Positions 5,693-30,303 of a DNA stretch of 43,196 nucleotides are shown here, piece after piece; within the stretch, counting starts at the first letter, position 1; every line of letters starts with the position of its first letter. This DNA comes from a virus. The DNA lies in the IMG/VR virus record IMGVR_UViG_3300024231_000020, positions 1 through 43,196 of that record; one strand, written 5' to 3'. Both the position numbers and the translations under genes were made by a program. Under the pieces are notes generated by a model. The model saw only the letters and a program-made list of their open reading frames with translations. It did not search any database and had not been told where the DNA came from.

Positions 5693-5707
5693 GTATAGAT
5701 ATATGTG

Positions 5708-5773
5708 TAAGTCGTTCAGTATCAAGGAGTTAGACGAGGCACCCCCTCTAACTCGTTCAGCATCAACGAGTTA
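5708..5773. repeat. Dyad-site pair 1 (25 bp + 16 + 25 bp)
   Basis: Two copies of the 25-bp dyad site TAAnTCnTT-7-AAnGAnTTA at 5708-5732 and 5749-5773, 41 bp apart, around a C-rich 16-bp spacer (GACGAGGCACCCCCTC). This pair lies between the convergent ends of the rIIB operon and the leftward operon, not upstream of a promoter. The second copy has perfect 9-bp arms. Confidence 0.9.
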
Positions 5774-5781
5774 GGGCTATG

Positions 5782-5910
5782 TCAATCATAATCTTTATCT
5801 TGTTGTTTTAACATATCATAGGCGAGTGCGACAAAGAACCATACTAGGCTAATTGTCCAGAGTGCTATGAGGCAGATACCTGCAACTGTTAGTAATTCGT
5901 TTGTGGTCAT
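5782..5910 (-). CDS. Small single-span membrane protein, 42 aa
   Basis: The product begins MTTNELLTVAGICLIALW and contains one hydrophobic helix (about residues 6-30, GICLIALWTISLVWFFVALA), followed by a short charged C-terminus ending KDYD. The start overlaps the stop of the preceding gene (ATGA). It could act in the envelope, but nothing identifies it further. It is the last gene of the leftward block. Confidence 0.55.
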   Translation of the reverse strand: MTTNELLTVAGICLIALWTISLVWFFVALAYDMLKQQDKDYD

Positions 5911-6077
5911 GATGGTGAGTGGACTTGTAGTTCTGGTTCTCTATCGAACACCTCAAGCTCTACCTCAAAGGGTAATGTCTTAAGCAAGATGCTGATCTCG
6001 TCGATAGCTTCAAGTTGCTTGTCGAAGAGTTTGTCTCTATCGTCGTCTCTGATTGTTAGTTGGATTCTTGTTTGCAT
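5907..6077 (-). CDS. Hypothetical protein, 56 aa
   Basis: A small acidic protein starting MQTRIQLTIRDDDRDKLFDK. The beta-strand start followed by an acidic helix resembles the general shape of the LMDGSYQ-family proteins, though the sequence is different. A promoter at 6084-6111 ends six bases before the ATG, so the start is well supported. Function unknown. Confidence 0.6.
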   Translation of the reverse strand: MQTRIQLTIRDDDRDKLFDKQLEAIDEISILLKTLPFEVELEVFDREPELQVHSPS

Positions 6078-6083
6078 AGCTAT

Positions 6084-6111
6084 ATTATAGTAAATTGGTG
6101 ATTAAGGTCAA
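6084..6111 (-). promoter_or_regulatory. Leaderless promoter of the 56-aa gene
   Basis: On the minus strand TTGACC (6111-6106), 16-base spacer, TATAAT (6089-6084), then six bases and ATG at 6077. The -35 overlaps the stop codon of the upstream 73-aa gene. Confidence 0.75.
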
Positions 6112-6329
6112 GCGATTATTTTTGAGTTTTTAATGTCATACATGCCTGTTATTTGTATTACCTCTGCTTGTAGATTATTTGGCAATGTTTTAGTCGCAGA
6201 TCTGTATTGCCTTAGTGCATCCTTGTCATCTTTTGCTTCGTGGACGTAACCCAAAGTAGTTCTGCCTTTAGTTTTTTTGTTGTAAAGAAAGATATGATGG
6301 ACTTCTCTTGTGCGTTCTTCTGGGTTCAT
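6108..6329 (-). CDS. Hypothetical protein, 73 aa
   Basis: Unknown protein with a basic N-terminal half (NPEERTREVHHIFLYNKKTK) and a helix containing DDKDALRQYRSATK. It begins four bases after the stop of the 91-aa gene, so it is translated from the same message. There is no Shine-Dalgarno sequence; the ATG follows AAAATAATAAT. Confidence 0.55.
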   Translation of the reverse strand: MNPEERTREVHHIFLYNKKTKGRTTLGYVHEAKDDKDALRQYRSATKTLPNNLQAEVIQITGMYDIKNSKIIA

Positions 6330-6333
6330 ATTA

Positions 6334-6609
6334 TTATTTTGCTAGGAACATTCCTCCACCGAAGAAACCTTCGTGGCTTAGTTCTTTAGCTTTAGCTTTT
6401 ATGTTTTTGGCTGTGCCTCTTACAAGTGAGTCGTGGTGTTCTGTTAGTGGATCGACTAGCTTTACCACCTTATTGTATTCGTGCATTGAGGTATTGATGA
6501 ACATACCCTCTTTGATTTTCTTTCCATTGGTGATCCTTGCCGCTTCTAGTAGAAGCTTATAGTCGCTGGGAGAGAGGATGTCTTTTATGTGCTGTAATTG
6601 TTTGCTCAT
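6334..6609 (-). CDS. Hypothetical protein, 91 aa
   Basis: A mostly helical basic protein (MSKQLQHIKDILSPSDYKLL) with a glycine-rich C-terminus (FFGGGMFLAK). The start is fixed by the promoter at 6616-6644, which ends six bases before the ATG. Function unknown. It is followed by the 73-aa gene. Confidence 0.6.
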   Translation of the reverse strand: MSKQLQHIKDILSPSDYKLLLEAARITNGKKIKEGMFINTSMHEYNKVVKLVDPLTEHHDSLVRGTAKNIKAKAKELSHEGFFGGGMFLAK

Positions 6610-6615
6610 GGTTAT

Positions 6616-6644
6616 ATTTTAAAGGTTTGGGTTTTAATTTGCAA
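6616..6644 (-). promoter_or_regulatory. Leaderless promoter of the 91-aa gene
   Basis: TTGCAA (6644-6639), 17-base spacer, TAAAAT (6621-6616), six bases, ATG at 6609. The sequence TTAAAATATAACCATG is the same as before the gene at 11028. Confidence 0.7.
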
Positions 6645-6794
6645 TGATATTTTTGTGTTTTTTTGGAAAGCTGGGCTGGTCATATCCATTATATTCAACT
6701 AAAAACGCCAACCCTCGCTGTCCCTTCTCAGGTAATTTAGTCTACACCTAGAGGTAATCACCTACGCCTCTAACGCTTGGCTTTCCCTTTTGGT
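6645..6794 (-). ncRNA. Candidate structured small RNA or long leader
   Basis: A promoter at 6801-6828 fires leftward, but no convincing gene starts for about 190 bases, and the 91-aa gene has its own promoter. The RNA would contain a six-pair hairpin (TAGAGG / CCTCTA around 12 bases), a second AGGT/ACCT pairing, GCCAA that can pair with TTGGC, and a CAGCTTTCCAAAA segment also found in the leader at 11342-11570. I cannot assign it to a known RNA family. Confidence 0.35.
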
Positions 6795-6800
6795 GTCTGC

Positions 6801-6828
6801 ATTATAGCAGAATGGCGGGGGATAGCAA
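6801..6828 (-). promoter_or_regulatory. Leftward promoter with A-rich upstream element
   Basis: TTGCTA (6828-6823), 16-base spacer, TATAAT (6806-6801). Upstream on the minus strand lies A-tract-GATTAAAAAGG, the same element as at 652 and 1443, then a GTTCCAC palindrome and dyad-site pair 2. Confidence 0.75.
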
Positions 6829-6849
6829 CACCTTTTTAATCTTTTTTTT

Positions 6850-6867
6850 GTGGAACAAATGTTCCAC
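6850..6867. repeat. GTTCCAC palindrome
   Basis: GTGGAACAAATGTTCCAC, perfect eight-base arms around AA. An identical copy lies at 10215-10232. It sits between dyad-site pair 2 and the promoter at 6801-6828. Confidence 0.85.
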
Positions 6868-6877
6868 GGAACCTCTA

Positions 6878-6943
6878 TAACTCATTGAGTGTCAACGACT
6901 TAGAAGGGTCGCCCCCCGCAACTCGTTGATTATCAACGACTTA
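6878..6943. repeat. Dyad-site pair 2 (41-bp period)
   Basis: Copies at 6878-6902 and 6919-6943 with spacer GAAGGGTCGCCCCCCG. It lies upstream of the leftward promoter at 6801-6828, about 50 bp from the -35, and downstream of the 69-aa gene. Two CTGTTAG motifs follow at once. Confidence 0.9.
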
Positions 6944-6959
6944 CGGCTGTTAGAGGCTG

Positions 6960-7169
6960 TTAGTAATCCTCTTCCTCTAACAGATCATCTTGGCAACACT
7001 CACATAAAAAACTATTTTGATTTATTAGTTCTTGGGTAGTGCCACTCATGAAGCGAACAGCGTCCCCGTTAGGGGTGAAGTATCTTACCTTGTCGCTGTT
7101 AACATCTTCAACCGATGTCTTGTCGTAGCATTCAGCACACATAACGTGCATTCCTATTACTTTAGTCAT
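6960..7169 (-). CDS. Small cysteine-rich (probable zinc-binding) protein, 69 aa
   Basis: A C-x2-C pair at residues 11-14 (CAEC) and a second cluster near the C-terminus (CECC) suggest one zinc site. The C-terminus is acidic (LLEEEDY). The stop codon lies in a CTAACAG motif. It follows the 113-aa gene by 18 bases in the GP88 operon. Function unknown. Confidence 0.6.
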   Translation of the reverse strand: MTKVIGMHVMCAECYDKTSVEDVNSDKVRYFTPNGDAVRFMSGTTQELINQNSFLCECCQDDLLEEEDY

Positions 7170-7187
7170 TTGTTTTATTTTGTTAGA

Positions 7188-7529
7188 TTAGAACCATGCG
7201 GAATAGAAAACCTGCTTACCCTCTCTCAAGGTGTCGTAAGCATCAGAGATAAACTCAAGAGTTTTTTCCTTCTGGTAGTCATCATGCCTTGAATCGCTAC
7301 CATAAAAGAATCCATGCGTTTCTGGTAGCTCGTCATTTACTACTACCGCCTCAAGCTGTTCGATGTCGTGCATCTTAAGCTCAAGCTCTGCGCAGTTCCA
7401 TTCTCCGTCATTTCCCTTAGTGCGCCAGAGAGCTTCCATCCATCCATCAAGCGCATTATGTTTGCGCCAGTCTTGAATATATTCTCTTCCGTCCTTATCT
7501 TTTGTATATGCTGCTTGGTCTAGTCCCAT
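7188..7529 (-). CDS. Conserved phage protein of the GLDxxAY type, 113 aa
   Basis: The start MGLDQAAYTKD, the WRKHNALDGWMEALW segment, a FFYGSDS loop and the end VFYSAWF match a widespread small phage/bacterial family (often GLDMYAY...WRKHN...LHGWM) with no established function; it is sometimes mis-annotated as a kinase. Length is usual for the family. Leader ACTAAACAACTAATAAC, no Shine-Dalgarno sequence. Third gene of the GP88 operon. Confidence 0.7.
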   Translation of the reverse strand: MGLDQAAYTKDKDGREYIQDWRKHNALDGWMEALWRTKGNDGEWNCAELELKMHDIEQLEAVVVNDELPETHGFFYGSDSRHDDYQKEKTLEFISDAYDTLREGKQVFYSAWF

Positions 7530-7541
7530 GTTATTAGTTGT

Positions 7542-7607
7542 TTAGTGTTTGTTTTGCTGGTATATCCATATCAAGAATATTGAAATTGTCAAAAGTATTG
7601 TTATCAT
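7542..7607 (-). CDS. Candidate 21-aa hydrophobic peptide
   Basis: A 21-codon frame encoding MITILLTISIFLIWIYQQ then NKH, a single membrane helix with a polar tail. The ATG is four bases after the GP88 stop and the frame ends 12 bases before the next gene, filling the gap neatly. Similar micro-peptides occur in phages, but only the hydrophobicity and position support it. Confidence 0.35.
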   Translation of the reverse strand: MITILLTISIFLIWIYQQNKH

Positions 7608-7611
7608 GTTT

Positions 7612-8319
7612 TTATGCTGTTGCTGGTTCAATTACAAAACCTGTCTCGTCTTTCTTGGCAAGTCCTTTCTCGACAAGTCCGACAATCACGCCCTTGCCAT
7701 CTAAGAAGCGCAAGTCGGTCTCGTCTCCGTTGATGACTTTAAACCCGTTCCAAGTCTTTGGCAAGCACTTTCTGAACACCATTGCAACATTTCCGCCAGC
7801 ACTTAGGAAACCACTAACAAGAGATTGATTCTTTGTTTCCTCACTGCGTGAGAATGTCAGATGATAGTTGCTAGGTAATTCACCAGCGAGGAATTTTGTC
7901 ATGCGTTCTGGTGACTTTGTATAGTCCATGAATTGAACCTCGGGGAAGTGTTCCATCATGTTTTTGCCGTCTAGCTTTACGTTTTCCCATGGGATGTCGC
8001 TTGTTAGGTTAAAACGAAACGAAGGTTTTAATTCTTTTCTTTTGGCAAGCTTCACTGCGTTGGTTATCTCTCTCTTTAGCTGTGTGAGAAAAGCTATCTT
8101 ATCCTCAAAAAACAAGCGAGTCTTTTTGATCCTGGCAGCCTGGACGTTAGAGAAGTTTCCCATTCCACTGGTATCAAGACAAGCGGCTTTGCATCCTTTT
8201 GATGCCCACTTGCAGACATTGAAACCAGACTTGTTAGCTGGGGATAGGTGAATGCCCCATGACTGGTAATTTAGTTTTATGTTTTTCTCTAGCTTAGTGT
8301 TAGTGGTTAGTAACTTCAT
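7612..8319 (-). CDS. GP88-family phage protein, 235 aa
   Basis: Matches the pattern of mycobacteriophage gene-product-88-like proteins: a cysteine cluster after the start (CKWASKGCKAAC), a helix carrying the Arg/Lys-rich AARIKKTRLFFEDK, RFNLTSDIPWE, the fish-hook FMDYTKSPER, and NYHLTFSRSE. The function of the family is unknown; the Cys cluster with the DYTK-type motif suggests a metal- or radical-type fold, which is only inference. I start at the ATG at 8319, because it lies six bases after a TACAAT box. First gene of an operon that runs to 6960. Confidence 0.75.
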   Translation of the reverse strand: MKLLTTNTKLEKNIKLNYQSWGIHLSPANKSGFNVCKWASKGCKAACLDTSGMGNFSNVQAARIKKTRLFFEDKIAFLTQLKREITNAVKLAKRKELKPSFRFNLTSDIPWENVKLDGKNMMEHFPEVQFMDYTKSPERMTKFLAGELPSNYHLTFSRSEETKNQSLVSGFLSAGGNVAMVFRKCLPKTWNGFKVINGDETDLRFLDGKGVIVGLVEKGLAKKDETGFVIEPATA

Positions 8320-8325
8320 GGCTGT

Positions 8326-8353
8326 ATTGTAACAGAATCGGCGACGCACACAA
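8326..8353 (-). promoter_or_regulatory. Leaderless promoter of the GP88 operon
   Basis: TTGTGT (8353-8348), 16-base spacer, TACAAT (8331-8326), then ACAGCC and ATG. A long A-rich stretch with GATTAAAAAA lies upstream on the minus strand. Confidence 0.75.
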
Positions 8354-8397
8354 GCCTTTTTTAATTATTTTTTAATCTTTTTTTTTGATCTTTTTGG

Positions 8398-8425
8398 TTG
8401 ACATATTGAGCTTTTGTGGTATAGA
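8398..8425 (+). promoter_or_regulatory. Rightward promoter running into dyad-site pair 3
   Basis: TTGACA (8398-8403), 16-base spacer, TATAGA (8420-8425), then six bases and an ATG at 8432. It opposes the surrounding leftward genes. It could produce an antisense RNA through the dyad sites toward the DUF932-like gene, or the short frame 8432-8524. Confidence 0.5.
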
Positions 8426-8431
8426 AGAATC

Positions 8432-8524
8432 ATGCGTAACTCGTTCAGTATCAACGACTTAGAAGGGGTGCCCCACGCAACTCCTTCAGTATCAATGACT
8501 TACGTAGGTTATTTACGCTGTTAG
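8432..8524 (+). CDS. Candidate 30-codon frame across dyad-site pair 3
   Basis: ATG lies exactly six bases after a TATAGA box, the same geometry as the leaderless genes of the other strand. The frame (MRNSFSINDLEGVPHATPSV and on) runs through both dyad sites and ends at a TGTTAG motif. Other dyad pairs do not preserve such a frame with a start, so the DNA may be constrained by the sites and not by coding. Confidence 0.2.
   Translation: MRNSFSINDLEGVPHATPSVSMTYVGYLRC
8437..8502. repeat. Dyad-site pair 3 (41-bp period)
   Basis: Copies at 8437-8461 and 8478-8502, spacer GAAGGGGTGCCCCACG (a G-run facing a C-run). It lies upstream of the GP88 promoter, 84 bp from its -35, and downstream of the terminator at 8541-8574. 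Confidence 0.9.
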
Positions 8525-8540
8525 AAACTGTTAGATTATA

Positions 8541-8574
8541 GGCAAAAGAAAACCCCCGCCTGTTAGGGCGAGGG
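8541..8574 (-). terminator. Rho-independent terminator after the DUF932-like gene
   Basis: On the minus strand CCCTCGCC, loop CTAACA, GGCGGGGG, then TTTTCTTTT. The loop is exactly the CTAACA motif that recurs across the region. Confidence 0.8.
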
Positions 8575-8589
8575 CTGTTAGGGTTGCGC

Positions 8590-9354
8590 TTACGCTGGGA
8601 GAACTAGACCAGTCTCGTTGTCCACTGTTAGGTTAGGCGAGTGATTCGCCAAGCGGTCGAAGTTGGACTGGATAACCATGGTGCGGGATGGCAACTTGGA
8701 AACGTCCGAACCCTTGAGCATCTCAGTGCAAGCGTTATAGAGATTCCAAAGATTGTTGCCCTTGAATTCCTCATGGCGTGGGGCTTCAAACTCTTTGACA
8801 GTCTTGTAAAGGTCACGCGCAGAGAATCCCTTGGAGTCAACAAGATCCACAAGCAAGTCGGAAGCTTGCTGGCGAGTGATGTCAGTCTCTTGATACGCGG
8901 TGATGCGTTGTGCCATGTCAGTCCAGTGAGAAGTGACACGGGAAACAGCAGAAGACAACACGCGAGGCAAGTCTGTTAGGATTCGCGGAGTGTGACGACG
9001 AGCAAGCTTGATGTCAGAGGAGAAACAAAGGTTATCACACACAAGCATTTGATTGCCGATGCAGATTGCGGAAGCAAAAGCCTTGTCATGGCTGTTACGA
9101 ATTCCCACAACTAGATTGCGGTCATCTGCTTGGATGTCCTTGCCAGTGATGGAAAAGCCTCCGAAGTAACGAAGATCACCACGGGAGAGACCATGCTCCT
9201 CATGTGTGACTTCTAAGCCAGCCCGATCAAGAGCCTTGCGCGTATAGTCTACGAGCGTAGCGTGTGGGATTGGCGTGTGGGTGTCAGTTCCAGCAGGAGT
9301 GTCAAGTTTAGCAAGCTGGTCGGATTCGATGCGGTTTTTGGATAGTATAAGCAT
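8590..9354 (-). CDS. DUF932-like phage protein, 254 aa
   Basis: The central part (LVVGIRNSHDKAFASAICIG, then MLVCDNLCFSSDIKLARRHT) matches the core of DUF932-type phage/plasmid proteins (NSHD...G...VCDNLxF...RKHT). The C-terminal half is helical (LVDLVDSKGFSARDLYKTVK). Function unknown; such proteins are common in phage early regions and may handle DNA. The gene has the longest clear leader in the block: the promoter is at 9403-9431 and about 42 bases precede the ATG, ending AACCAACTAACTAACTAA. It is noticeably richer in G+C than its neighbours and is followed by a classical terminator. Confidence 0.7.
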   Translation of the reverse strand: MLILSKNRIESDQLAKLDTPAGTDTHTPIPHATLVDYTRKALDRAGLEVTHEEHGLSRGDLRYFGGFSITGKDIQADDRNLVVGIRNSHDKAFASAICIGNQMLVCDNLCFSSDIKLARRHTPRILTDLPRVLSSAVSRVTSHWTDMAQRITAYQETDITRQQASDLLVDLVDSKGFSARDLYKTVKEFEAPRHEEFKGNNLWNLYNACTEMLKGSDVSKLPSRTMVIQSNFDRLANHSPNLTVDNETGLVLPA

Positions 9355-9402
9355 AGTATTTAGTTAGTTAGTTGGTTAAGCGTCTTTCGTGACTGCGGAG
9401 AC

Positions 9403-9431
9403 ATTATAGCCTAAAAGATTCTTTTGGACAA
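9403..9431 (-). promoter_or_regulatory. Promoter of the DUF932-like gene
   Basis: TTGTCC (9431-9426), 17-base spacer, TATAAT (9408-9403). The upstream sequence (A-tract, TCG, T-tract, ATGCAGAAAGTGC) is nearly the same as upstream of the promoter at 13792. Confidence 0.75.
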
Positions 9432-9485
9432 GCACTTTCTGCATAAAAAACGATTTTTTTTTAATGTTCCACGGAAATGTTCCAC
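9428..9485 (-). repeat. Promoter-upstream module with direct GTTCCAC boxes, copy A
   Basis: About 57 bp almost identical to 13817-13873: ACAAGCACTTTCTGCATAAA, an A/T-tract, then TGTTCCAC twice (9465-9472 and 9478-9485) as direct repeats 13 bp apart. A looser relative lies near 11600-11692. Confidence 0.8.
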
Positions 9486-9548
9486 ACAGCTGGGATTCAG
9501 AAAACGCCAAATATAATCTAACAGCTGGGATTCAGAAATTGCCAAATA
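9486..9548. repeat. Two tandem 35-bp repeats
   Basis: ACAGCTGGGATTCAGAAA followed by two variable bases and GCCAAATA occurs at 9486-9513 and 9521-9548, period 35 bp. It is found only here, between the GTTCCAC boxes and dyad-site pair 4, and includes PvuII-like CAGCTG cores. Role unknown. Confidence 0.8.
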
Positions 9549-9581
9549 GACTGTTAGACGTTTCTGTTAGGCATACTTACG

Positions 9582-9647
9582 TAAGTCGTTCATTATCAAT
9601 GAGTTACGTGGGGGCCCCCTTCTAACTCCTTCAGTATCAACGAGTTA
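9582..9647. repeat. Dyad-site pair 4 (41-bp period)
   Basis: Copies at 9582-9606 and 9623-9647, spacer CGTGGGGGCCCCCTTC, which is close to the reverse complement of the pair-3 spacer. It lies upstream of the DUF932 promoter and downstream of the 77-aa gene. Confidence 0.9.
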
Positions 9648-9663
9648 CGTTTGTTAGAAGCTG

Positions 9664-9897
9664 TTAGTCCCATGTGTAAACGGGGTGAAAATCGTCGTCG
9701 GCAATCGCGCCTTTTTTCAGACTGATCTCATCCACCGCGTAAGCAACGGAATTGTTGACGGTGAGCTGTAAAAGCTCCAGCATCTGCTGCTTGAGATCGC
9801 CAGCCTCCTTAGGGTTGAGATAAAGCGAATCAACAACCCTGTTGACGTTGGCGTGAGCTACGCGAGAATTTGTGCAGTATTTATAGAAGTCGGTCAT
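9664..9897 (-). CDS. Hypothetical protein, 77 aa
   Basis: A mainly helical protein (DLKQQMLELLQLTVNNSVAY) of unknown function. The leader is CACTACCTAACATT and the stop codon lies in a CTAACAG motif. It is the second gene of an operon starting at 10148, separated from the first gene by a strong hairpin. Confidence 0.55.
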   Translation of the reverse strand: MTDFYKYCTNSRVAHANVNRVVDSLYLNPKEAGDLKQQMLELLQLTVNNSVAYAVDEISLKKGAIADDDFHPVYTWD

Positions 9898-9922
9898 AAT
9901 GTTAGGTAGTGGTTAGAAGGTT

Positions 9923-9940
9923 GCTCCCCCGTAGGGGAGC
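9923..9940 (-). other. Intergenic hairpin
   Basis: On the minus strand GCTCCCC-TACG-GGGGAGC, seven perfect pairs. No U-tract follows, and the next gene starts 26 bases later, so it is more likely a processing or attenuation element than a terminator. Confidence 0.5.
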
Positions 9941-9983
9941 GGTTAGGGCGGTAGTAGGTTGGTTGAACCCCGCCCAGCGGAAA

Positions 9984-10148
9984 TTAGTGGGCGTCATCGA
10001 GGAACGGCTCCGACATATCGGCTTCGAGACAGGAGGCTCTCCAGTCCTGCCAATCTTGGATATCAGACTCCGAACCAAACTGAGCTTCGAACTCAGCATC
10101 AGCGGTGGAAGGACGGGCGGCGGCGGTGGTAGTGTTTTTCGTTTCCAT
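9984..10148 (-). CDS. Hypothetical acidic protein, 54 aa
   Basis: An Ala/Thr-rich start (METKNTTTAAARPSTADAEF) is followed by an acidic segment with DIQDWQDWR and ending EPFLDDAH. The start at 10148 is fixed by a TATAAT box exactly six bases upstream; the longer frame would translate promoter DNA. Function unknown. Confidence 0.55.
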   Translation of the reverse strand: METKNTTTAAARPSTADAEFEAQFGSESDIQDWQDWRASCLEADMSEPFLDDAH

Positions 10149-10154
10149 GGCTGA

Positions 10155-10182
10155 ATTATAACAGAATCTCGCTAATAGGCAA
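10155..10182 (-). promoter_or_regulatory. Leaderless promoter of the 54-aa gene
   Basis: TTGCCT (10182-10177), 16-base spacer, TATAAT (10160-10155), TCAGCC, ATG. Upstream come an A-tract, the GTTCCAC palindrome and dyad-site pair 5. Confidence 0.75.
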
Positions 10183-10214
10183 CATCTTTTTGCATGTTTA
10201 TGCACTTTTTTTTT

Positions 10215-10232
10215 GTGGAACAAATGTTCCAC
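10215..10232. repeat. GTTCCAC palindrome, second copy
   Basis: Same 18 bases as 6850-6867, in the same position between the dyad sites and a leftward promoter. Confidence 0.85.
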
Positions 10233-10242
10233 GGAACTTACA

Positions 10243-10308
10243 TAAGTCATTGAGTATCAACGAGTTAGAGGGGGCGCGGGGCGCAAGTCGTTCATTATCA
10301 ATGAGTTA
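10243..10308. repeat. Dyad-site pair 5 (41-bp period)
   Basis: Copies at 10243-10267 and 10284-10308, spacer GAGGGGGCGCGGGGCG. It lies 25 bases downstream (minus strand) of the tmRNA-like RNA and 61 bp upstream of the next -35. Confidence 0.9.
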
Positions 10309-10332
10309 CATAGATTTTTTTCTGTTAGATTT

Positions 10333-10401
10333 TGGTGGAGCGTAGGGGATTCGAACCCCTGTCTCTAACAGCCTCCTGTTAGATCGAAACCAGTTCGCCC
10401 C
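10333..10401 (-). ncRNA. Minimal tmRNA-like RNA: tRNA-like domain only, 69 nt
   Basis: The 5' end GGGGCGAACTGGTTTCGAT matches the start of tmRNA (GGGGCNNA...TGGNTTCGA), and the 3' end is a T-arm AGGGG-TTCGAAT-CCCCT, then ACGCTCC and an encoded ACCA. GGGGCG pairs with CGCTCC (one G-U), forming the acceptor stem. Between them lies only CTAACAG-GAGG-CTGTTAG, a perfect seven-pair hairpin, and AGAC. The mRNA-like tag frame and the pseudoknots of a real tmRNA (normally 300-400 nt) are absent. A normal tRNA reading fails because there is no D-stem and no seven-base anticodon loop. It lies downstream of the 90-aa gene and a strong hairpin, in the same direction. Possible roles are a decoy for alanyl-tRNA synthetase, SmpB or EF-Tu, or a remnant. 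The structure is read by eye. Confidence 0.65.
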
Positions 10402-10412
10402 TGTTAGATTTT

Positions 10413-10444
10413 GCCCCGCCCTCCGCACGACCAGAGGACGAGGC
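10413..10444 (-). other. Conserved strong hairpin, copy 1
   Basis: On the minus strand GCCTCGTCCTC pairs with GAGGGCGGGGC (11 pairs, two G-U). The stem is shared with 12426-12455, with a different loop. It lies just after the 90-aa gene and just before the tmRNA-like RNA; no U-tract follows. Confidence 0.6.
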
Positions 10445-10464
10445 GACCACTACACAGAACGCTG

Positions 10465-10737
10465 TTAGGCTACGACCTCAATTCCTGTTAGGTGCAACGT
10501 GCGGTATTTCTCCTGCGCGTTGTCATCAATGTCGGTAGCTAAGACCTTGAGGCAACGTCTGCCATTTTTCTTGGCGTTCCATACGTCCTCAACGGCATGA
10601 ATTTTAAAGGTGCGCTCTTTGTCTCTGCGAACGCTAGACTTCCCGTGGTTGATGTATCGCACAGTGCGATCTTTGAGAAGGTTTGCGATTTCGAGAGGAG
10701 AAGCGGAGGTGTCTGTGTTTGTGTTTGCGATTTGCAT
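10465..10737 (-). CDS. Hypothetical protein, 90 aa
   Basis: A basic beta-rich protein (VRYINHGKSSVRRDKERTFK, then KNGRRCLKVLATDIDD) of unknown function. The start at 10737 is six bases after a TATAAT box. An in-frame upstream ATG at 10821 would add 28 residues and could be used only on a longer message from the 62-aa gene. The stop is in a CTAACAG motif. The hairpin and the tmRNA-like RNA follow. Confidence 0.6.
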   Translation of the reverse strand: MQIANTNTDTSASPLEIANLLKDRTVRYINHGKSSVRRDKERTFKIHAVEDVWNAKKNGRRCLKVLATDIDDNAQEKYRTLHLTGIEVVA

Positions 10738-10743
10738 AGGTGT

Positions 10744-10772
10744 ATTATAGTTGGTTTTTGCGGTTGAGTCAA
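10744..10772 (-). promoter_or_regulatory. Leaderless promoter of the 90-aa gene
   Basis: TTGACT (10772-10767), 17-base spacer, TATAAT (10749-10744), ACACCT, ATG. It would also transcribe the tmRNA-like RNA. Confidence 0.8.
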
Positions 10773-10839
10773 TCCCTTTTTTTCGGATTGTAAGATTATT
10801 TAGTGCTTTTAAAACGTCCATTTGTTTTATGTGTTTGGG

Positions 10840-11028
10840 TTATTCTGGCACGATTGCCATTACATGCTCGATAGAGAAGCCGATTTCTTCTCCGTCCTCA
10901 GTCGTTCCCCAGAATGGGCGGTGAGGGTTATTTTCTACAACTTCGTCAACGATGACACAAGCTCCATTCACGATCACTTCTGTGCCGATTTTGATTTGTT
11001 CTTTATTCATAGTGCTATTTTCTTTCAT
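10840..11028 (-). CDS. Hypothetical protein, 62 aa
   Basis: A small beta-rich protein (KIGTEVIVNGACVIVDEVVE, then FWGTTEDGEEIGFSIEHV), shaped like a small SH3-like barrel. The start at 11028 is chosen because the -10 box lies six bases upstream; a second ATG six codons later is possible. Function unknown. Confidence 0.6.
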   Translation of the reverse strand: MKENSTMNKEQIKIGTEVIVNGACVIVDEVVENNPHRPFWGTTEDGEEIGFSIEHVMAIVPE

Positions 11029-11034
11029 GGTTAT

Positions 11035-11063
11035 ATTTTAAGTTAAAAGGGGGTTATTGTCAA
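11035..11063 (-). promoter_or_regulatory. Leaderless promoter of the 62-aa gene
   Basis: TTGACA (11063-11058), 17-base spacer, TAAAAT (11040-11035), ATAACC, ATG at 11028. One of the best promoters of the region. Confidence 0.85.
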
Positions 11064-11080
11064 CAATTCATTTGGCTTAT

Positions 11081-11341
11081 TTAAGACACGCCAAGAGCAT
11101 TGCCGTGTTTGTCGAATGTATTGCGAACAACCTTAGTTATTCCAGCGGAACGCCAACGCATATTGGAGCGGAACTCTTTGACAGTATCGCCAGCAGAGTT
11201 TTTAACAAGCACTCTCCAAGTGCCATTTGTATTTCCGTCATCCCAAGTGAAGCCACGCTTTGCTTCAAAAGCATTTAGGCTATCAAGATCAACGTGGAGA
11301 GTTTCGAACCAAGGAGTTTTTTTTGTTTTAGTGTTATTCAT
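11081..11341 (-). CDS. Hypothetical protein, 86 aa
   Basis: Unknown protein with alternating strand-like segments (FTWDDGNTNGTWRVLVKNSA) and a basic C-terminal part (FRSNMRWRSAGITKVVRNTF). The only visible promoter is 240 bases upstream at 11577-11605, leaving a long structured leader. The ATG follows AACTAGAAAATAATACT, without a Shine-Dalgarno sequence. Confidence 0.6.
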   Translation of the reverse strand: MNNTKTKKTPWFETLHVDLDSLNAFEAKRGFTWDDGNTNGTWRVLVKNSAGDTVKEFRSNMRWRSAGITKVVRNTFDKHGNALGVS

Positions 11342-11570
11342 AGTATTATTTTCTAGTTAGTGTTTTAAGTTTTGGAAAGCTGATTGCTCATAAAGGAGTT
11401 GCACCTTTATCTTCCTCTCCTACCGCTTGTGCCGTAGTATCCTCGGATTTCTCGGAGTATGTGAGAGGCTATCTTTACTTGTTAGAAGAATGAGCCATTA
11501 TGTAGTTTTTGTTTCGCCCTGCACTCGCAGGGCTTGGAAGTAGTTGGTTGGTTGATCCCTCCCTTTCGTT
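11342..11570 (-). ncRNA. Long structured leader or small RNA before the 86-aa gene
   Basis: Starting about 11570 the RNA has a CA-rich segment (ATCAACCAACCAACTACTT), hairpin CCCTGC-GAGT-GCAGGG, a micro-frame MAHSSNK, a long-range pair CCTCTC/GAGAGG enclosing about 44 bases, hairpin AAAGG-TGCAACT-CCTTT, and CAGCTTTCCAAAA, shared with the RNA at 6645-6794. Such a leader could regulate the gene behind it. No known riboswitch class was recognised. Confidence 0.4.
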
Positions 11571-11576
11571 GAACAC

Positions 11577-11605
11577 ATTATACCACAGTTGACCACTTTT
11601 TACAA
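11577..11605 (-). promoter_or_regulatory. Promoter of the structured leader / 86-aa gene
   Basis: TTGTAA (11605-11600), 17-base spacer, TATAAT (11582-11577), with an A-tract upstream and then a single dyad site. Confidence 0.75.
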
Positions 11606-11642
11606 GCTCTTTCGGCATTAAAAACGCTTTTTTTTTACTTTT

Positions 11643-11667
11643 TAATTCGTTCAGTATCAATGACTTA
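11643..11667. repeat. Single dyad site 6
   Basis: One 25-bp copy without a partner, 38 bp upstream of the -35 at 11605. Its last three bases provide the stop codon of the endolysin gene. Two direct GTTCCAC boxes (11673-11679 and 11686-11692, period 13) follow. Confidence 0.85.
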
Positions 11668-12234
11668 TAATTGTTCCACGGAATTGTTCCACAGAGATAC
11701 CTCGAATTTACGTCTTTTGACAAGTCCTTTGCGTATTTTGCCCCCTGCCATACGATACATTGGCATCACCTCGGAAACGCTTTGATAGTTTCCATCGTTT
11801 AAACGCCCTTCCTGAGAAACGAGCTGATAGAGTGCGCCCCTTCCGCAGTTGTATGTGAAACTTGTTAGAGACGCCAACTGATAATCTGTTAGAGGGACTT
11901 TGACCAGCTTAAGAACCACCTCTTTGTATTCGTGCAATTCCTTTTCTAACAAGTCGCTTGCTTCCCTCTCAGAGATGATGCCCTTGGATACTGCAACGCC
12001 TGTGTGACCATATCCAATCGTGCGCTTACCACCGCAACAAGTGTAAGCCTCGGCGCGATAACTCTCAAAATGTTTTACGCCTTTTAACATATCATACCAA
12101 GCCTTGTTTATGTTAGGTGCAAGCACCGCACTGTTAGGCTTTACCAATACAGGTCTGTTAGGCTTTACTAAGACAGGACTGTTAGATGCCATGATCGGGG
12201 TAATGAGGAGGGCGAGTAGTAGTGTTATTTTCAT
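11665..12234 (-). CDS. Endolysin, GH24 muramidase with N-terminal signal, 189 aa
   Basis: Cleaves the glycan strands of peptidoglycan at lysis. The GH24 catalytic triad is present in its Cys variant: Glu in HFESYRAEAY, Cys eight residues later, and Thr five residues after that in GGKRTIGYGHT (E-8-C-5-T). The C-terminal half has YQLASLTSFTYNCGRGAL, as in phage lysozymes. The N-terminal MKITLLLALLITPIMA is a signal peptide or signal-arrest-release anchor, so the enzyme is probably exported by the host Sec system. It is followed by a PVLVKPN-type tandem repeat encoded by repeated CTAACAG-containing DNA. The last ten codons come from GTTCCAC boxes and a dyad site. The start is six bases after a TATAAT box. 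Confidence 0.85.
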   Translation of the reverse strand: MKITLLLALLITPIMASNSPVLVKPNRPVLVKPNSAVLAPNINKAWYDMLKGVKHFESYRAEAYTCCGGKRTIGYGHTGVAVSKGIISEREASDLLEKELHEYKEVVLKLVKVPLTDYQLASLTSFTYNCGRGALYQLVSQEGRLNDGNYQSVSEVMPMYRMAGGKIRKGLVKRRKFEVSLWNNSVEQL

Positions 12235-12240
12235 GGCTTA

Positions 12241-12269
12241 ATTATACTCTAACAGAAACCTAACAGCAA
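12241..12269 (-). promoter_or_regulatory. Leaderless promoter of the endolysin gene
   Basis: TTGCTG (12269-12264), 17-base spacer with two CTGTTAG-type motifs, TATAAT (12246-12241), TAAGCC, ATG. Three dyad sites lie 27-133 bp upstream. Confidence 0.75.
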
Positions 12270-12295
12270 GGATTATTTTGTTTTTCTTTACTACC

Positions 12296-12402
12296 TAAGT
12301 CGTTCAGTATCAATGAGTTACGCCCCCTGCACCTTCTAAGTCGTTGACTATCAATGAGTTAAAAGGGTCGCCTCCCCTAAGTCGTTCAGTATCAACGAGT
12401 TA
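12296..12402. repeat. Dyad-site triple 7 (41-bp period)
   Basis: Three copies at 12296-12320, 12337-12361 and 12378-12402, each step exactly 41 bp, spacers CGCCCCCTGCACCTTC and AAAGGGTCGCCTCCCC. The only triple, placed upstream of the endolysin promoter. Confidence 0.9.
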
Positions 12403-12425
12403 CGCATACTGTTAGGCAAAGCAAT

Positions 12426-12455
12426 GCCCCGCCCCCACACTACTAGGGACGAGGC
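12426..12455 (-). other. Conserved strong hairpin, copy 2
   Basis: On the minus strand GCCTCGTCCC pairs with GGGGCGGGGC (ten pairs, two G-U), loop TAGTAGTGTG. Same stem as 10413-10444 and, like it, just downstream of a gene and upstream of dyad sites. No U-tract. Confidence 0.6.
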
Positions 12456-12499
12456 GCACTACTGCACTATGAAGAAAACTGTTAGATGTTAGAGAGCTG

Positions 12500-13021
12500 T
12501 TAGATTAGCGCAGTGACATAGAGATTCTTTTGCACTTCTTTTGTTAGAACAGTATAGCCTTTGTCTTGCGCCTGGAATTCCATCAGCCATTCCATATCGT
12601 CATTTGTTAGAGTGGGCATCTTGCGAGGTGTCTCTGCGTAGTTCCATACAATGAGTGTGCCTGACTTAGAGAAACCAAGGATTTGTTTTAGTGTTTCCCT
12701 TAGCTGGAGTCTTGTCTCTTGGACGTTCAAGACATTGCTTACCATGATCACATCATAGGAATCTCTCATGGTGCTGTCTGCTAGTGATAGGTCATAGCCA
12801 TCGCATGAGTATCCTTCACCGCCTAGCTTATCAGCCCAGAAGTTATGCTTACCTGCGCCAAAGTCTAACACATCGTGACGTTGCTTATTGATTACATGCT
12901 CAACTGCATAGTGATACACTCTAGCCTTAGGTGTGAAGTTCTTGCGATACGTCTTAGTGCGAGGGTCTTTGTTAGCCGCTTGCCACATAGCACCGCCCCA
13001 GCTCTTAGGTTCTTCTTTCAT
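12500..13021 (-). CDS. SAM-dependent methyltransferase-like protein, 173 aa
   Basis: Class I methyltransferase fold: motif I VLDFGAGKHNFWADKL, the acidic residue after strand 2 in GYDLSL, and motif IV-like YDVIMVSNVLNVQE, then a strand TLIVWNY. The order and spacing fit a small Rossmann methyltransferase. No NPPY or other DNA-specific motif is visible, so the substrate is unknown. The first 25 residues (KSWGGAMWQAANKDPRTKTY) are basic. The ATG directly follows a CTAACAGC leader in a run of co-directional genes starting at 13785 or 13555. Confidence 0.7.
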   Translation of the reverse strand: MKEEPKSWGGAMWQAANKDPRTKTYRKNFTPKARVYHYAVEHVINKQRHDVLDFGAGKHNFWADKLGGEGYSCDGYDLSLADSTMRDSYDVIMVSNVLNVQETRLQLRETLKQILGFSKSGTLIVWNYAETPRKMPTLTNDDMEWLMEFQAQDKGYTVLTKEVQKNLYVTALI

Positions 13022-13032
13022 GCTGTTAGATG

Positions 13033-13272
13033 TTAGTAGAGAGAAGCCTCGATTGATTCGTAGCGAAACATAGCATCATCATTCATTTGATCAAGCTCTT
13101 CATCGGTAGCTTGTCTACCATCGACACGGGCATCCATGATGTAGGCATCAACGAAGTCGGGCGCATCACGAAGATCAATGCCGTCGATGTCGATGTTAGA
13201 GATCTGGGCGGTATAAGCTCCACGCTCGGAGCAGTTGAATTGGAACTCTGTTCCTGTTAGTATATTTTCCAT
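13033..13272 (-). CDS. Hypothetical acidic protein, 79 aa
   Basis: Starts MENILTGTEFQFNCSERGAY; the second half is strongly acidic with several Asp and Glu runs (DEELDQMNDDAMF). A longer frame upstream exists but overlaps the 87-aa gene out of frame, so I use the ATG at 13272, which follows an AT-rich leader. Function unknown. Confidence 0.55.
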   Translation of the reverse strand: MENILTGTEFQFNCSERGAYTAQISNIDIDGIDLRDAPDFVDAYIMDARVDGRQATDEELDQMNDDAMFRYESIEASLY

Positions 13273-13291
13273 AGTGTTATTATTGTAGTGG

Positions 13292-13555
13292 TTAGATGTT
13301 AGGTAGCTCGAGCTTGCGGTATGCATACTCTGCTTTGATTGTTTCGAGTTGGTGGTTACGTCTGCGCATCTCAAGCTTGCTCCAGTGTCCCTCAGCGATG
13401 CTCTTTGTAGTTCTGATGAACCATCCCTTGAGGATGTATTCGCTTGCATAGTGCAGATCAATCTCAAATGCGCTTGGCTGATTGCTTTGGAAGTTATTAG
13501 CTTTGCAAGGCGCTTCGTATCCGTGTGTCCAGTAGTCTTTCATAGTAGTGTTCAT
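13292..13555 (-). CDS. Hypothetical protein, 87 aa
   Basis: Aromatic- and His-rich N-terminal half (DYWTHGYEAPCK, then HYASEYILKGWF) and a basic helix at the end (MRRRNHQLETIKAEYAYRKL). The ATG is six bases after a TAGAAT box. Function unknown; it probably heads the operon 13555-12500. Confidence 0.55.
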   Translation of the reverse strand: MNTTMKDYWTHGYEAPCKANNFQSNQPSAFEIDLHYASEYILKGWFIRTTKSIAEGHWSKLEMRRRNHQLETIKAEYAYRKLELPNI

Positions 13556-13561
13556 GGCGAT

Positions 13562-13590
13562 ATTCTATAGTAATTTTAGTGACCTTGCAA
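13562..13590 (-). promoter_or_regulatory. Leaderless promoter of the 87-aa gene
   Basis: TTGCAA (13590-13585), 17-base spacer, TAGAAT (13567-13562), ATCGCC, ATG. The -35 lies within the end of the 69-aa gene. Confidence 0.65.
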
Positions 13591-13785
13591 GACATTTCGA
13601 CGCTTATTTTCAGCGTCTCGTTTTGCTTTCATAACCATCTCACGCTCTCGCTTGAGTTCGAATTGACGGGTGCGCTCCACTTGTGCCTCGGCGTTACGTG
13701 TAGCGGTGGCTAACATATCGTTAAGCATGGCGTGAACGTCTGAAGGAACGGAGGGGAGTAGTGATGTAGTGTTTCTCTCTTGCAT
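13576..13785 (-). CDS. Hypothetical charged helical protein, 69 aa
   Basis: After a short Ser/Pro-rich start the protein is one long charged helix (RTRQFELKREREMVMKAKRD) with coiled-coil character. It is the rightmost leftward gene. The start is six bases after a TATAAT box. Function unknown. Confidence 0.6.
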   Translation of the reverse strand: MQERNTTSLLPSVPSDVHAMLNDMLATATRNAEAQVERTRQFELKREREMVMKAKRDAENKRRNVLQGH

Positions 13786-13791
13786 GGGTGT

Positions 13792-13819
13792 ATTATAGCA
13801 GAATGGGTAAAAACTACAA
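13792..13819 (-). promoter_or_regulatory. Leaderless promoter of the 69-aa gene
   Basis: TTGTAG (13819-13814), 16-base spacer, TATAAT (13797-13792), ACACCC, ATG. The preceding ATTCTGC is shared with the promoter at 6801. Confidence 0.75.
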
Positions 13820-13873
13820 GCACTTTCTGCATAAAAAGTGATTTTTTTTCAATGTTCCACGGAAATGTTCCAC
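13817..13873 (-). repeat. Promoter-upstream module with direct GTTCCAC boxes, copy B
   Basis: Nearly identical to 9428-9485: ACAAGCACTTTCTGCATAAA, an A/T-tract and TGTTCCAC at 13853-13860 and 13866-13873 (period 13). A degenerate relative of the dyad site (GTCATT...TATCAACG) follows at about 13938-13965. Confidence 0.8.
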
Positions 13874-13977
13874 AAATTAGACCCTACCCGATTAAAGCAA
13901 AAAAACTGTTAGGTAAATGTTAGATTTCGCGGGGGGGAGTCATTCTTCAGTTTATCAACGGTCATTTGTTGTAAGTT

Positions 13978-27925: not shown

Positions 27926-29056
27926 TTAAAAGAATACTGGTCTGTTTTGACCTGAGCCACTACAGATGATTCCGTTCTCTACATCATCAATTCCTCCAAG
28001 CTGAACACCGAAGGTAAGGTCTACAGTCTTGTTCGAACCAATGCTTGATGAGTAGCTCTCAGAATCAAGAGTAGCACCTTTAAGGGTCCACTTGATTGCT
28101 GGAGGGCCTTCACAAGAGTTCATTGTTATGGATATTTCACCATCACTGGATGAACATCCAGAAACCGCAGCTGCAAGGTTTCCAGCTTCCATGTCGTTAA
28201 GTACGGCATTAACACTAAGTGTTGCGTTAACTGGGAAGTCAACAACCCTAGCAAACGGAAACTTAGAACCAACTCTTTCAATTGGTGTTCTAGAAAGAGG
28301 AAGAGAAAGGTTTGCACTCTGAACGTGGAATTTTCCAGCTCCCTTGATTTTTGCCATTGTGCCAGACTCCTGTGCTCCATCATCGAAACCAGGAAACTCA
28401 ATTGAGATATCTCCAGGCCTAAGAGCAGAAACTCCATCTTGACCAGTGTTCTTGGGTCTCAAGACTTCAATTGTGTTGCCGATAGGCTCTCCTACTTCAG
28501 CATCGATTGCCACGCTGTCTCCAGTCATGTGGAAGTCGCTTGGCGCATTTCCTTGAATTGTGCCTTGTTGAGAGTTGATATTAGAAGCCTCAAAAGATAC
28601 ATTTGCTGTTGGAAGAGAACCTACAGAAAGATCGATTGAATAGTCACTAAGGAATGCGTTGCCGATTCCAATTAGGCTATAAGGATCATCTTTTGCAAAA
28701 GTAGTTGAGTCCTGACCTTCATCTGAAGTCACAATGTAGAAGTTTCTTCCGCTTGAGCTTTCTAGAAAGCCACTAGCAAACTGAGCTTGCTCTGTGACAT
28801 TGAAGCCGAGAGCTTTTTCGTTAAAGCCATCAGTAAGATAGTAAGAAAAGTCGAAGTTGACTGTAGGTGGCTCAAGAACCAAAGAGTCGATTCTTGCGAG
28901 GTTTCCGTATTGGTTAACGTCTTGCCTATTAATGGTGAAACCATAGTTGGCGCTCTGGACCCTGATTAACTCATGGTGATCTCCAGATGTTGCCGCTGTT
29001 GCGCTATTACTAACGAAAAGCGATTCTGATTGGTAAATTACTCTATTTCTTGACAT
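27926..29056 (-). CDS. Tail-tube-like protein B, 376 aa
   Basis: Beta-rich protein sharing its start (RNRVIYQSE, RVQSANYGFTINRQDVNQ) and most of its length with the next gene upstream; the two are tandem paralogues. Inside each, the first-half segment VQSANYGFTINRQ and the second-half VQSANLSLPLSRTPIE mark an internal duplication, as in tail tubes built from two barrel units per chain. The assignment rests on fold-like pattern, abundance-type composition and neighbours (neck genes). Tail spike or other tube component are alternatives. Last gene of the leftward operon. Confidence 0.6.
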   Translation of the reverse strand: MSRNRVIYQSESLFVSNSATAATSGDHHELIRVQSANYGFTINRQDVNQYGNLARIDSLVLEPPTVNFDFSYYLTDGFNEKALGFNVTEQAQFASGFLESSSGRNFYIVTSDEGQDSTTFAKDDPYSLIGIGNAFLSDYSIDLSVGSLPTANVSFEASNINSQQGTIQGNAPSDFHMTGDSVAIDAEVGEPIGNTIEVLRPKNTGQDGVSALRPGDISIEFPGFDDGAQESGTMAKIKGAGKFHVQSANLSLPLSRTPIERVGSKFPFARVVDFPVNATLSVNAVLNDMEAGNLAAAVSGCSSSDGEISITMNSCEGPPAIKWTLKGATLDSESYSSSIGSNKTVDLTFGVQLGGIDDVENGIICSGSGQNRPVFF

Positions 29057-29089
29057 GTTTTAAGAATGTTTATTGTTTGAATTTTTATT

Positions 29090-30256
29090 TTACTCCCAAG
29101 GAAGTTTTGTATCGTTGCTTCCGCTAATAAATACACCGTTGTTTACGTCTCTAGTTCCACCGATCTGAGTAGAGAATGTAAGATCTACACTCTTATTTGA
29201 TCCGATACTTGATGAGAAGCTTTCTGAATCAATAGTACATCCCTTAAGTTCAATGCGCATACCAGTTTCTGTTCCGCCACACTGCATAAGAGTAAGGAAT
29301 ACATCTTGAGTATCCTGTGATCCACAACCACTAATCATAGAAGCGAGGTTGTTTGCGTCCATTGTGTTAACAATAGCGTTTATGCTTAGGGTAGCGTTAA
29401 CAGGGAAGTCAACAACTCTAGCAAACGGGAACTTAGAACCAAGTCTTTCGATTGGTGTTCTGGAAAGAGGAACAGAGAGGTTTGCGCTCTGAACATGAAT
29501 TCCTTCGCTTGCTGACAGATCACTGAGAAGTGTTCCGTCGAAGTTCGCTAAGTCAATCCTGATATCTCCAGGGCGAAGGGCTGCAAGTTGATCTTCAGCG
29601 TCAGCTACATAGTCCCCACTGTGGGAGTTACCAGTTGCGAATGGAAGGGTTACTAGTCCTGGAAGGGATTCACCAATTTCTGGGTTAACTGCAGGAGTTG
29701 TAATGCCAGAGAAACCACTGATTGTACCGTCACCACTTACTGTTGTGTCTGAGATGATGTTAGAGGCTTCGAATGAAACACTTGCTGTTGGGAGAGATCC
29801 TACAGAAAGGTCTAAAGTGTAATCAGTTAGAAAAGCATTTCCAATTCCTATAACTGTGTTTTCTGTTTCTCCAGTATCCTTATTCAGGTTAGCGTCCTTT
29901 CCCTCTGGGACAGTCAAGATGAACAGGTTTTGGCCTGATCCAGCTGCTAGGTGTCCAGAAGCAAATTGTGCTTGATCTGTTTGGTTGGAGTTTTGAACGT
30001 AAAAGTCCAAAGCTCTTTCGTTGAATCCATTAGTTGGATAGTATGTTACATCAAAATTTACAGTAGGAGCTTCAAGAATGATCGAATCGATTCTTGCAAG
30101 GTTACCAAATTGGTTAACATCCTGTCGGTTAATTGTGAAGCCGTAGTTTGCGCTTTGAACTCTGTGAAGCTGCGTATGATCGCTTAAGCTGAGAGAATCG
30201 TAGTCTTTACTAGTAAAAAGCGCCTCTGATTGATAAATTACTCTATTTCTTGCCAT
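29090..30256 (-). CDS. Tail-tube-like protein A, 388 aa
   Basis: Paralogue of the 376-aa protein. Conserved landmarks are RVQSANYGFTINRQDVNQFG, AFLTDYTLDLSVGSLPTASV, LSRTPIERLGSKFPFARVVD and DSESFSSSIGSNKSVDLTF. The differences lie mainly in loops around residues 15-25 and 165-235, as expected if one copy specialises (for example tube versus tail tip or initiator). Probably a structural virion protein. Start ATG 30256, after an AT-rich leader. Confidence 0.6.
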   Translation of the reverse strand: MARNRVIYQSEALFTSKDYDSLSLSDHTQLHRVQSANYGFTINRQDVNQFGNLARIDSIILEAPTVNFDVTYYPTNGFNERALDFYVQNSNQTDQAQFASGHLAAGSGQNLFILTVPEGKDANLNKDTGETENTVIGIGNAFLTDYTLDLSVGSLPTASVSFEASNIISDTTVSGDGTISGFSGITTPAVNPEIGESLPGLVTLPFATGNSHSGDYVADAEDQLAALRPGDIRIDLANFDGTLLSDLSASEGIHVQSANLSVPLSRTPIERLGSKFPFARVVDFPVNATLSINAIVNTMDANNLASMISGCGSQDTQDVFLTLMQCGGTETGMRIELKGCTIDSESFSSSIGSNKSVDLTFSTQIGGTRDVNNGVFISGSNDTKLPWE

Positions 30257-30303
30257 GACGGTATTATTTTAAGTGTTTACAGTTGTTTTCTGGGTTTGTG
30301 AAA

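Follow-up and report, generated by a model that had tools for sequence, protein, structure and literature searches.

The window analyzed here is the whole of IMG/VR virus record IMGVR_UViG_3300024231_000020, a 43-kb stretch (43,196 nucleotides) of DNA that encodes a T4-type terminase, RIIA- and RIIB-like proteins, and an endolysin. On its minus strand, at 10333-10401, lies a 69-nt RNA that has the tRNA-like domain (TLD) of transfer-messenger RNA (tmRNA) and nothing else. Given the virus record and these phage genes, the RNA is phage-encoded. It sits between two minus-strand genes, and no open reading frame (ORF) of at least 80 amino acids crosses it. In a cmscan of the whole window, the sole Rfam match at threshold was to the tmRNA model RF00023 at 10333-10401 (47.5 bits, E 7.5e-16). 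This match spans model positions 1-374 in full, with 306 of them deleted. A preliminary description, made from the letters alone, had proposed that the RNA is the tRNA-like part of tmRNA alone and had suggested Infernal as a check; the deleted match agrees with that proposal, and Infernal gave no tRNA match. ARAGORN reported zero tRNAs and zero tmRNAs in the window.

Read on the minus strand from its 5′ end at 10401 to its 3′ CCA end at 10333, the RNA is laid out as GGGGCGA-ACT-GGTTTCGA-TCTAACAG-GAGG-CTGTTAGA-GAC-AGGGG-TTCGAAT-CCCCT-ACGCTCC-ACCA. The acceptor stem is formed by GGGGCGA (10395-10401, with G3 at 10399) and ACGCTCC, which is followed by A73 and an encoded CCA (10333-10343, with U70 at 10339). 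Six of its seven positions pair, the third as G3-U70, and the T-arm AGGGG-TTCGAAT-CCCCT (10344-10360) pairs at five of five. The single G-U pair and the perfect T-arm were described correctly beforehand, and the G-U is at 3-70. The D-loop GGTTTCGA (10384-10391), the region to which SmpB binds in known tmRNAs, fits the RF00023 consensus; SmpB binding to the TLD is documented (PMC3985003). The mRNA-like domain and the pseudoknots are missing. In their place is a single 20-nt arm, a capped helix H2 hairpin made of TCTAACAG, the loop GAGG, and CTGTTAGA (10364-10383), with eight pairs by our count instead of the seven first given. These 20 nt are all that separates the D-loop from GAC, and neither a tag reading frame nor a resume codon is present. 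tmRNA-type 5′ and 3′ halves are therefore joined in one short RNA, which places it in the TLD-only class. The RNA folds at -26.8 kcal/mol (z -2.5), and 2 of 200 shuffles folded equally well.

The RNA is found in the corresponding position in two related contigs: L102, whose neighboring DUF932 protein is 98% identical to that of the window, and L103, in which it is 84% identical. Each retains both tmRNA ends, so the possibility that the two ends would not be kept together in homologous phages was not borne out. Among the three copies, six alignment positions vary (two in the D-loop, three in the H2 loop, and one in the T-loop) and none of these is in a stem. The D-loop has a single base change in L102 and a single base insertion in L103. 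In L103, the H2 stem is unaltered while its loop changes from GAGG to TTTG, and the intergenic stretch directly upstream of the RNA is strongly diverged. A search of 83 loci from terminase and DUF932 relatives, many of them short, found the RNA in L102 and L103 only.

The RNA belongs to a broad phage family. A first motif scan of IMG/VR, using GGGG, TGGNTTCGA, and GAC plus the T-arm with a short middle, found 90 contigs with about 50 distinct sequences, and a second scan with different fixed letters gave at least 120 matches. When nearly the same motif was searched across 84,980 species of bacteria and archaea, each represented by a single genome, only four matches were found, all in metagenome-assembled bins. 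One of these four contigs (L093) is clearly phage by its gene content; two others (L092 and L095) had no PHROG match. Every one of the four bins also has a tmRNA of 368-391 nt. In the two bins with readable ends, the acceptor and T-arm sequences of the long tmRNA are unlike those of the short RNA; therefore, the short form did not arise from that gene by loss of sequence during assembly. When the RNA region of the window was compared directly with isolated phages by BLAST, only short matches of 26-36 nt were found. Similarity searching found unannotated TLD-only RNAs in the Streptomyces phages BRock, Alone3, LuckySocke, GiJojo, pSt2308, and Riptide (the last weaker), as well as in Stenotrophomonas phage Jojan60 and Pontimonas phage phiPsal1. 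Those of isolated phages are mostly situated among tRNA genes. Most members of the family have a small inner hairpin of the CCGCANGCGG type within the arm. The window RNA belongs to a minority with a simple hairpin, together with L094, L213, L220, and L233, and the stems of these are unrelated.

Several individual loci deserve comment. In an Anaerolineae contig (L094), the TLD-only model matches again at 592-671, less strongly (34 bits) and 66 nt upstream of the TLD-only RNA. In Jojan60 (L264, 1889-2029) and GiJojo (L270, 1499-1741), the annotation includes hypothetical ORFs that overlap the TLD-only RNA, and these are probably wrong calls. ARAGORN called a 324-nt tmRNA over the copy in L032, which we rejected because it skips the adjacent GGGG start and takes an unrelated 5′ domain. 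Its tRNA calls over the copies in L233 and L084 were judged spurious, since RF00023 or the family model R1 (below) fits better. Pseudomonas phage PaMx31, Xanthomonas phages XacN1 and Rb1, and the crAss-like phage cr50_1 were also rejected as TLD-only carriers since their RNAs are permuted tmRNAs. Matches to the permuted model RF04321 that have no RNA annotation in the record were seen at L266 1475-1774, L267 1477-1782, and L098 1981-2280, the phages being Xanthomonas XacN1 and Rb1 and Pseudomonas PaMx31.

Covariation across this family was assessed with the covariance model R1, built from 13 members with the window excluded. R1 detects the window RNA at 58.8 bits (E 2e-10). Nearly all members score about 49-95 bits with this model, while longer tmRNAs score 23-34 and tRNAs below 18. 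In an alignment of 105 rows, 96.8% of 2210 cells are paired, compared to 44-55% in slid controls. There are 632 double-changed cells against 174 (sd 13) in shuffles, and 20 of the 22 pairs show double changes. Because the rows were aligned to the structure itself, and because a few with low scores are probably tRNAs, these figures are biased in favor of the structure. Helix H2 has two-sided changes at all seven pairs, though its letters were free in both scans. The covariation in related phages for which the preliminary description had proposed to look is thus present, and it supports the earlier argument that the RNA is not a product of simple decay.

The features that specify charging with alanine are kept as well. 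The G-U pair at 3-70 is the main determinant for alanyl-tRNA synthetase (AlaRS) and is fully conserved in canonical tmRNA (PMC3985003). The window RNA has the alanine identity of a canonical tmRNA, namely G3-U70 and A73. In the alignment, G3-U70 is retained in 100 of 104 rows, even though the acceptor stem varies greatly at pairs 5 and 6. Among the 50 distinct sequences of the first scan, U70 was found in 49 and A73 in all 50, and neither was set by the search pattern. In GiJojo, which was found by similarity, pair 4 is now U-A and 3-70 is still G-U. Because these elements are kept around changing neighbors, the sequences point to selection for charging in the TLD-only family. The suggestion that AlaRS could charge such an RNA is well supported by the covariation across the family.

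The neighborhood of the RNA suggests how it may be expressed. A small protein gene lies immediately upstream (10465-10737, minus strand). Its ORF was listed from 10821, and we infer a start at the in-frame ATG at 10737, after a promoter-like site; the longer ORF version had no PHROG match. This site is a sigma-70-like promoter, TTGACT-17-TATAAT (10744-10772, minus strand, 11 of 12 matches), and is kept in L103. The next downstream gene has its own promoter-like site, TTGCCT-16-TATAAT (10155-10182, minus strand), which matches the consensus and is largely kept in L103. Because promoter-like sites precede the small gene and, separately, the downstream gene, the RNA probably forms a short transcription unit with the small gene, in which it comes second.

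The region is also rich in repeats. The heptamer CTGTTAG occurs 35 times in the window compared to 6.0 expected, with 33 copies within 5886-13912, which bears out the earlier view of CTAACAG as a local motif. In this region, most copies read CTAACAG on the minus strand, which is the coding one; they often come as direct pairs separated by 3-4 nt, and the TAA sometimes doubles as the stop codon of a gene. Within the RNA or next to it are three CTAACAG copies on the minus strand and an inverted one. One minus-strand copy touches the 5′ end of the RNA, the G of the motif being G1 (10401-10407), and another comes right after the 3′ end (10322-10328); both are kept in L102 and L103. A 77-nt intergenic repeat is present in seven copies, at 5706-5782, 6876-6952, 8435-8511, 9580-9656, 10241-10317, and 12294-12411. 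In each copy, imperfect palindromes (TAACTCGTTGANNNTCAACGAGTTA) are combined with a spacer rich in G+C; a role as terminators or as binding sites for proteins is possible. Farther away, 28149-30289 contains a tandem gene duplication: the neighboring minus-strand genes at 27926-29056 and 29090-30256 are 73-78% identical in DNA over several stretches, offset by 1.2 kb, and the first of them matched nothing in Pfam or PHROG. At the end of the record, 34371-42830 is taken up by one ORF of 2819 amino acids. The nearest terminases of isolated phages, among the matches listed, are at most 22-26% identical to that of the window.

The kind of RNA described here is already known, if little explored. The preliminary description implied that there was no precedent, but a “TLD only” tmRNA was reported in mycobacteriophage DS6A, according to later accounts (PMC4131195, PMC11915505) that cite Mao et al. 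2009. By description, the DS6A RNA is of the same class; the window copy differs in being in an unrelated phage and in having an arm that is a palindrome of local repeats. In the literature we searched, DS6A was the sole phage example found. No paper presenting TLD-only tmRNAs as a widespread phage class was found in the open literature, with subscription papers mostly outside the search. A 2025 tmRNA database paper repeats the DS6A case and adds two plastid forms of about 65 bp (PMC11915505). These Mallomonadaceae plastid tmRNAs, which have no coding sequence, and a tagless mitochondrial tmRNA share with the window RNA a tRNA-like domain without a tag frame, but they are organellar genes and not phage-borne (PMC11915505). 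The canonical one-piece tmRNA (RF00023) has in common with the window RNA the acceptor with G3-U70, A73, the GGNTTCGA D-loop, the T-arm, and the base of helix H2. Unlike the canonical form, the window RNA has no tag frame, resume codon, or pseudoknots, and it is 69 nt long against 374 model positions. Permuted two-piece tmRNAs (RF04321 and RF01850), which also occur in phages, are likewise phage-encoded with a tRNA-like domain; they place the 3′ half before the 5′ half and have a coding piece, whereas the window RNA is one 69-nt molecule in normal order.

The genes around the family bear on which partners such an RNA would use. SmpB was not found in 51 carrier records by a search that detected it in ten bacterial genomes. 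No full-length RF00023 tmRNA was found in these records either, where all above-cut-off matches were about 70-84 nt and the permuted models were not run. Many carrier records are fragments, so these absences are only suggestive. If carriers have neither SmpB nor a full-length tmRNA, partners from the host would be needed.

We lean towards the interpretation that the window RNA is a phage tmRNA reduced to its tRNA-like domain and that it serves as a decoy directed at the ribosome rescue of the host. The RNA would be transcribed together with the upstream small gene, trimmed in the manner of a tRNA, charged with alanine by the host AlaRS, and bound by host SmpB and EF-Tu. It would then compete with host tmRNA at stalled ribosomes. 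Tagging and rescue would be lowered because the decoy sponges up SmpB and, when charged, takes the nascent chain onto an RNA with nothing to read. Since the window RNA has no resume codon or tag, trans-translation could not be completed on it. In support, a TLD-only form is reported, in the accounts that cite Mao et al. 2009 (PMC4131195, PMC11915505), to inhibit tmRNA in E. coli. A rescue decoy had been suggested in the preliminary description; that possibility is well supported by the covariation and the published DS6A work, while the function itself is one that we infer from sequence.

Some observations weigh against this interpretation. The 47.5 bits of the window RNA are barely over the RF00023 gathering cut-off of 47 bits, and L102 (43.4 bits) and L103 (39 bits) are both under it. 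Acceptor pair 7 is A-A, and the minimum free energy fold of a 151-nt precursor departs from that of the 69-nt RNA. L102 reads ATCGA where TTCGA is conserved, despite the 98% identity of its neighbor protein. In addition, inhibition by the TLD-only form is reported, in the same secondary accounts, not to need charging. G3-U70 is kept nonetheless, which suggests something beyond titration of SmpB: a natural role for the charged form, through either ribosome capture or tagless rescue.

Tagless rescue is itself an alternative to a decoy: the charged RNA, with host SmpB, would accept the nascent chain and clear stalled ribosomes without a degradation tag, so that ribosomes and truncated phage proteins stay usable. 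The retained alanine-identity elements fit this, as does a mitochondrial tmRNA reported to have no tag frame yet to be conserved alongside SmpB (PMC11915505). However, no release step is known without a stop codon, and the TLD-only form is reported, as far as the secondary accounts go, to inhibit and not to support tmRNA in E. coli. We consider tagless rescue unlikely, though plausible. Another possible explanation, slightly less plausible in our estimate, is that the RNA mimics tRNA(Ala) and soaks up AlaRS, EF-Tu, or host defense nucleases that target tRNA or tmRNA, with no direct role in ribosome rescue. The retained alanine identity fits this as well, and a tRNA gene lies within 1 kb of the RNA copy in 22 of 94 loci, compared to about 10.5 expected for random places in the same loci. 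On the other hand, anticodon nucleases would find no anticodon arm, and such mimicry gives no reason for the retained tmRNA-type D-loop.

The two remaining explanations were rejected as main explanations because of the scarcity of integrases and the empty ARAGORN result. An attachment site for integration in ssrA, or a decayed tmRNA remnant, is improbable. tmRNA genes are common integration sites, and three carriers (G004, G009, and G046), two of them near-identical in this region, have an integrase no more than about 1 kb from the RNA. Against this, the tyrosine integrase PF00589 was found in only 7 of 52 carrier records and not in the window record, which is possibly a fragment and in which serine integrases were not searched. 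One end suffices for an attachment site, whereas this RNA has both ends plus a covarying cap, and its loops change while its stems are conserved. The earlier idea of an attachment-site mimic is therefore disfavored. Finally, its tRNA-like length and both ends could suggest an unusual tRNA with a real anticodon, which we regard as very improbable. A known tRNA class with an anticodon would have spoken against the tmRNA assignment, but neither ARAGORN nor Rfam gave a tRNA match in the window. By these searches and the fold, the cloverleaf, the D-stem, and a 7-nt anticodon loop are all lacking, and the middle loop has 4 nt and varies between relatives (GAGG, TTTG).

What this analysis adds to the DS6A case is breadth, covariation, and conserved alanine identity, of which the breadth and the alanine identity appear to be new. 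From our searches, TLD-only tmRNAs appear to be frequent among phages whose hosts are unrelated, to lack annotation in most cases, and to keep AlaRS identity. More tentatively than for the decoy, we propose that they form a large, dedicated class of phage RNAs selected for alanylation. Charged but tagless, these RNAs would be taken up by stalled ribosomes as substrates, and in infected cells they would shut down or redirect trans-translation by the host. The copy in the window would be a simple-hairpin subtype built from local repeats. It can now be tested whether ribosome rescue is a routine target of phages and why an inhibitor reported to be active uncharged retains its charging signal; the Streptomyces phages BRock, LuckySocke, and Alone3 are isolated carriers with laboratory hosts. 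This widespread and mostly unannotated set of phage RNAs probably jams or diverts the ribosome rescue of the host.
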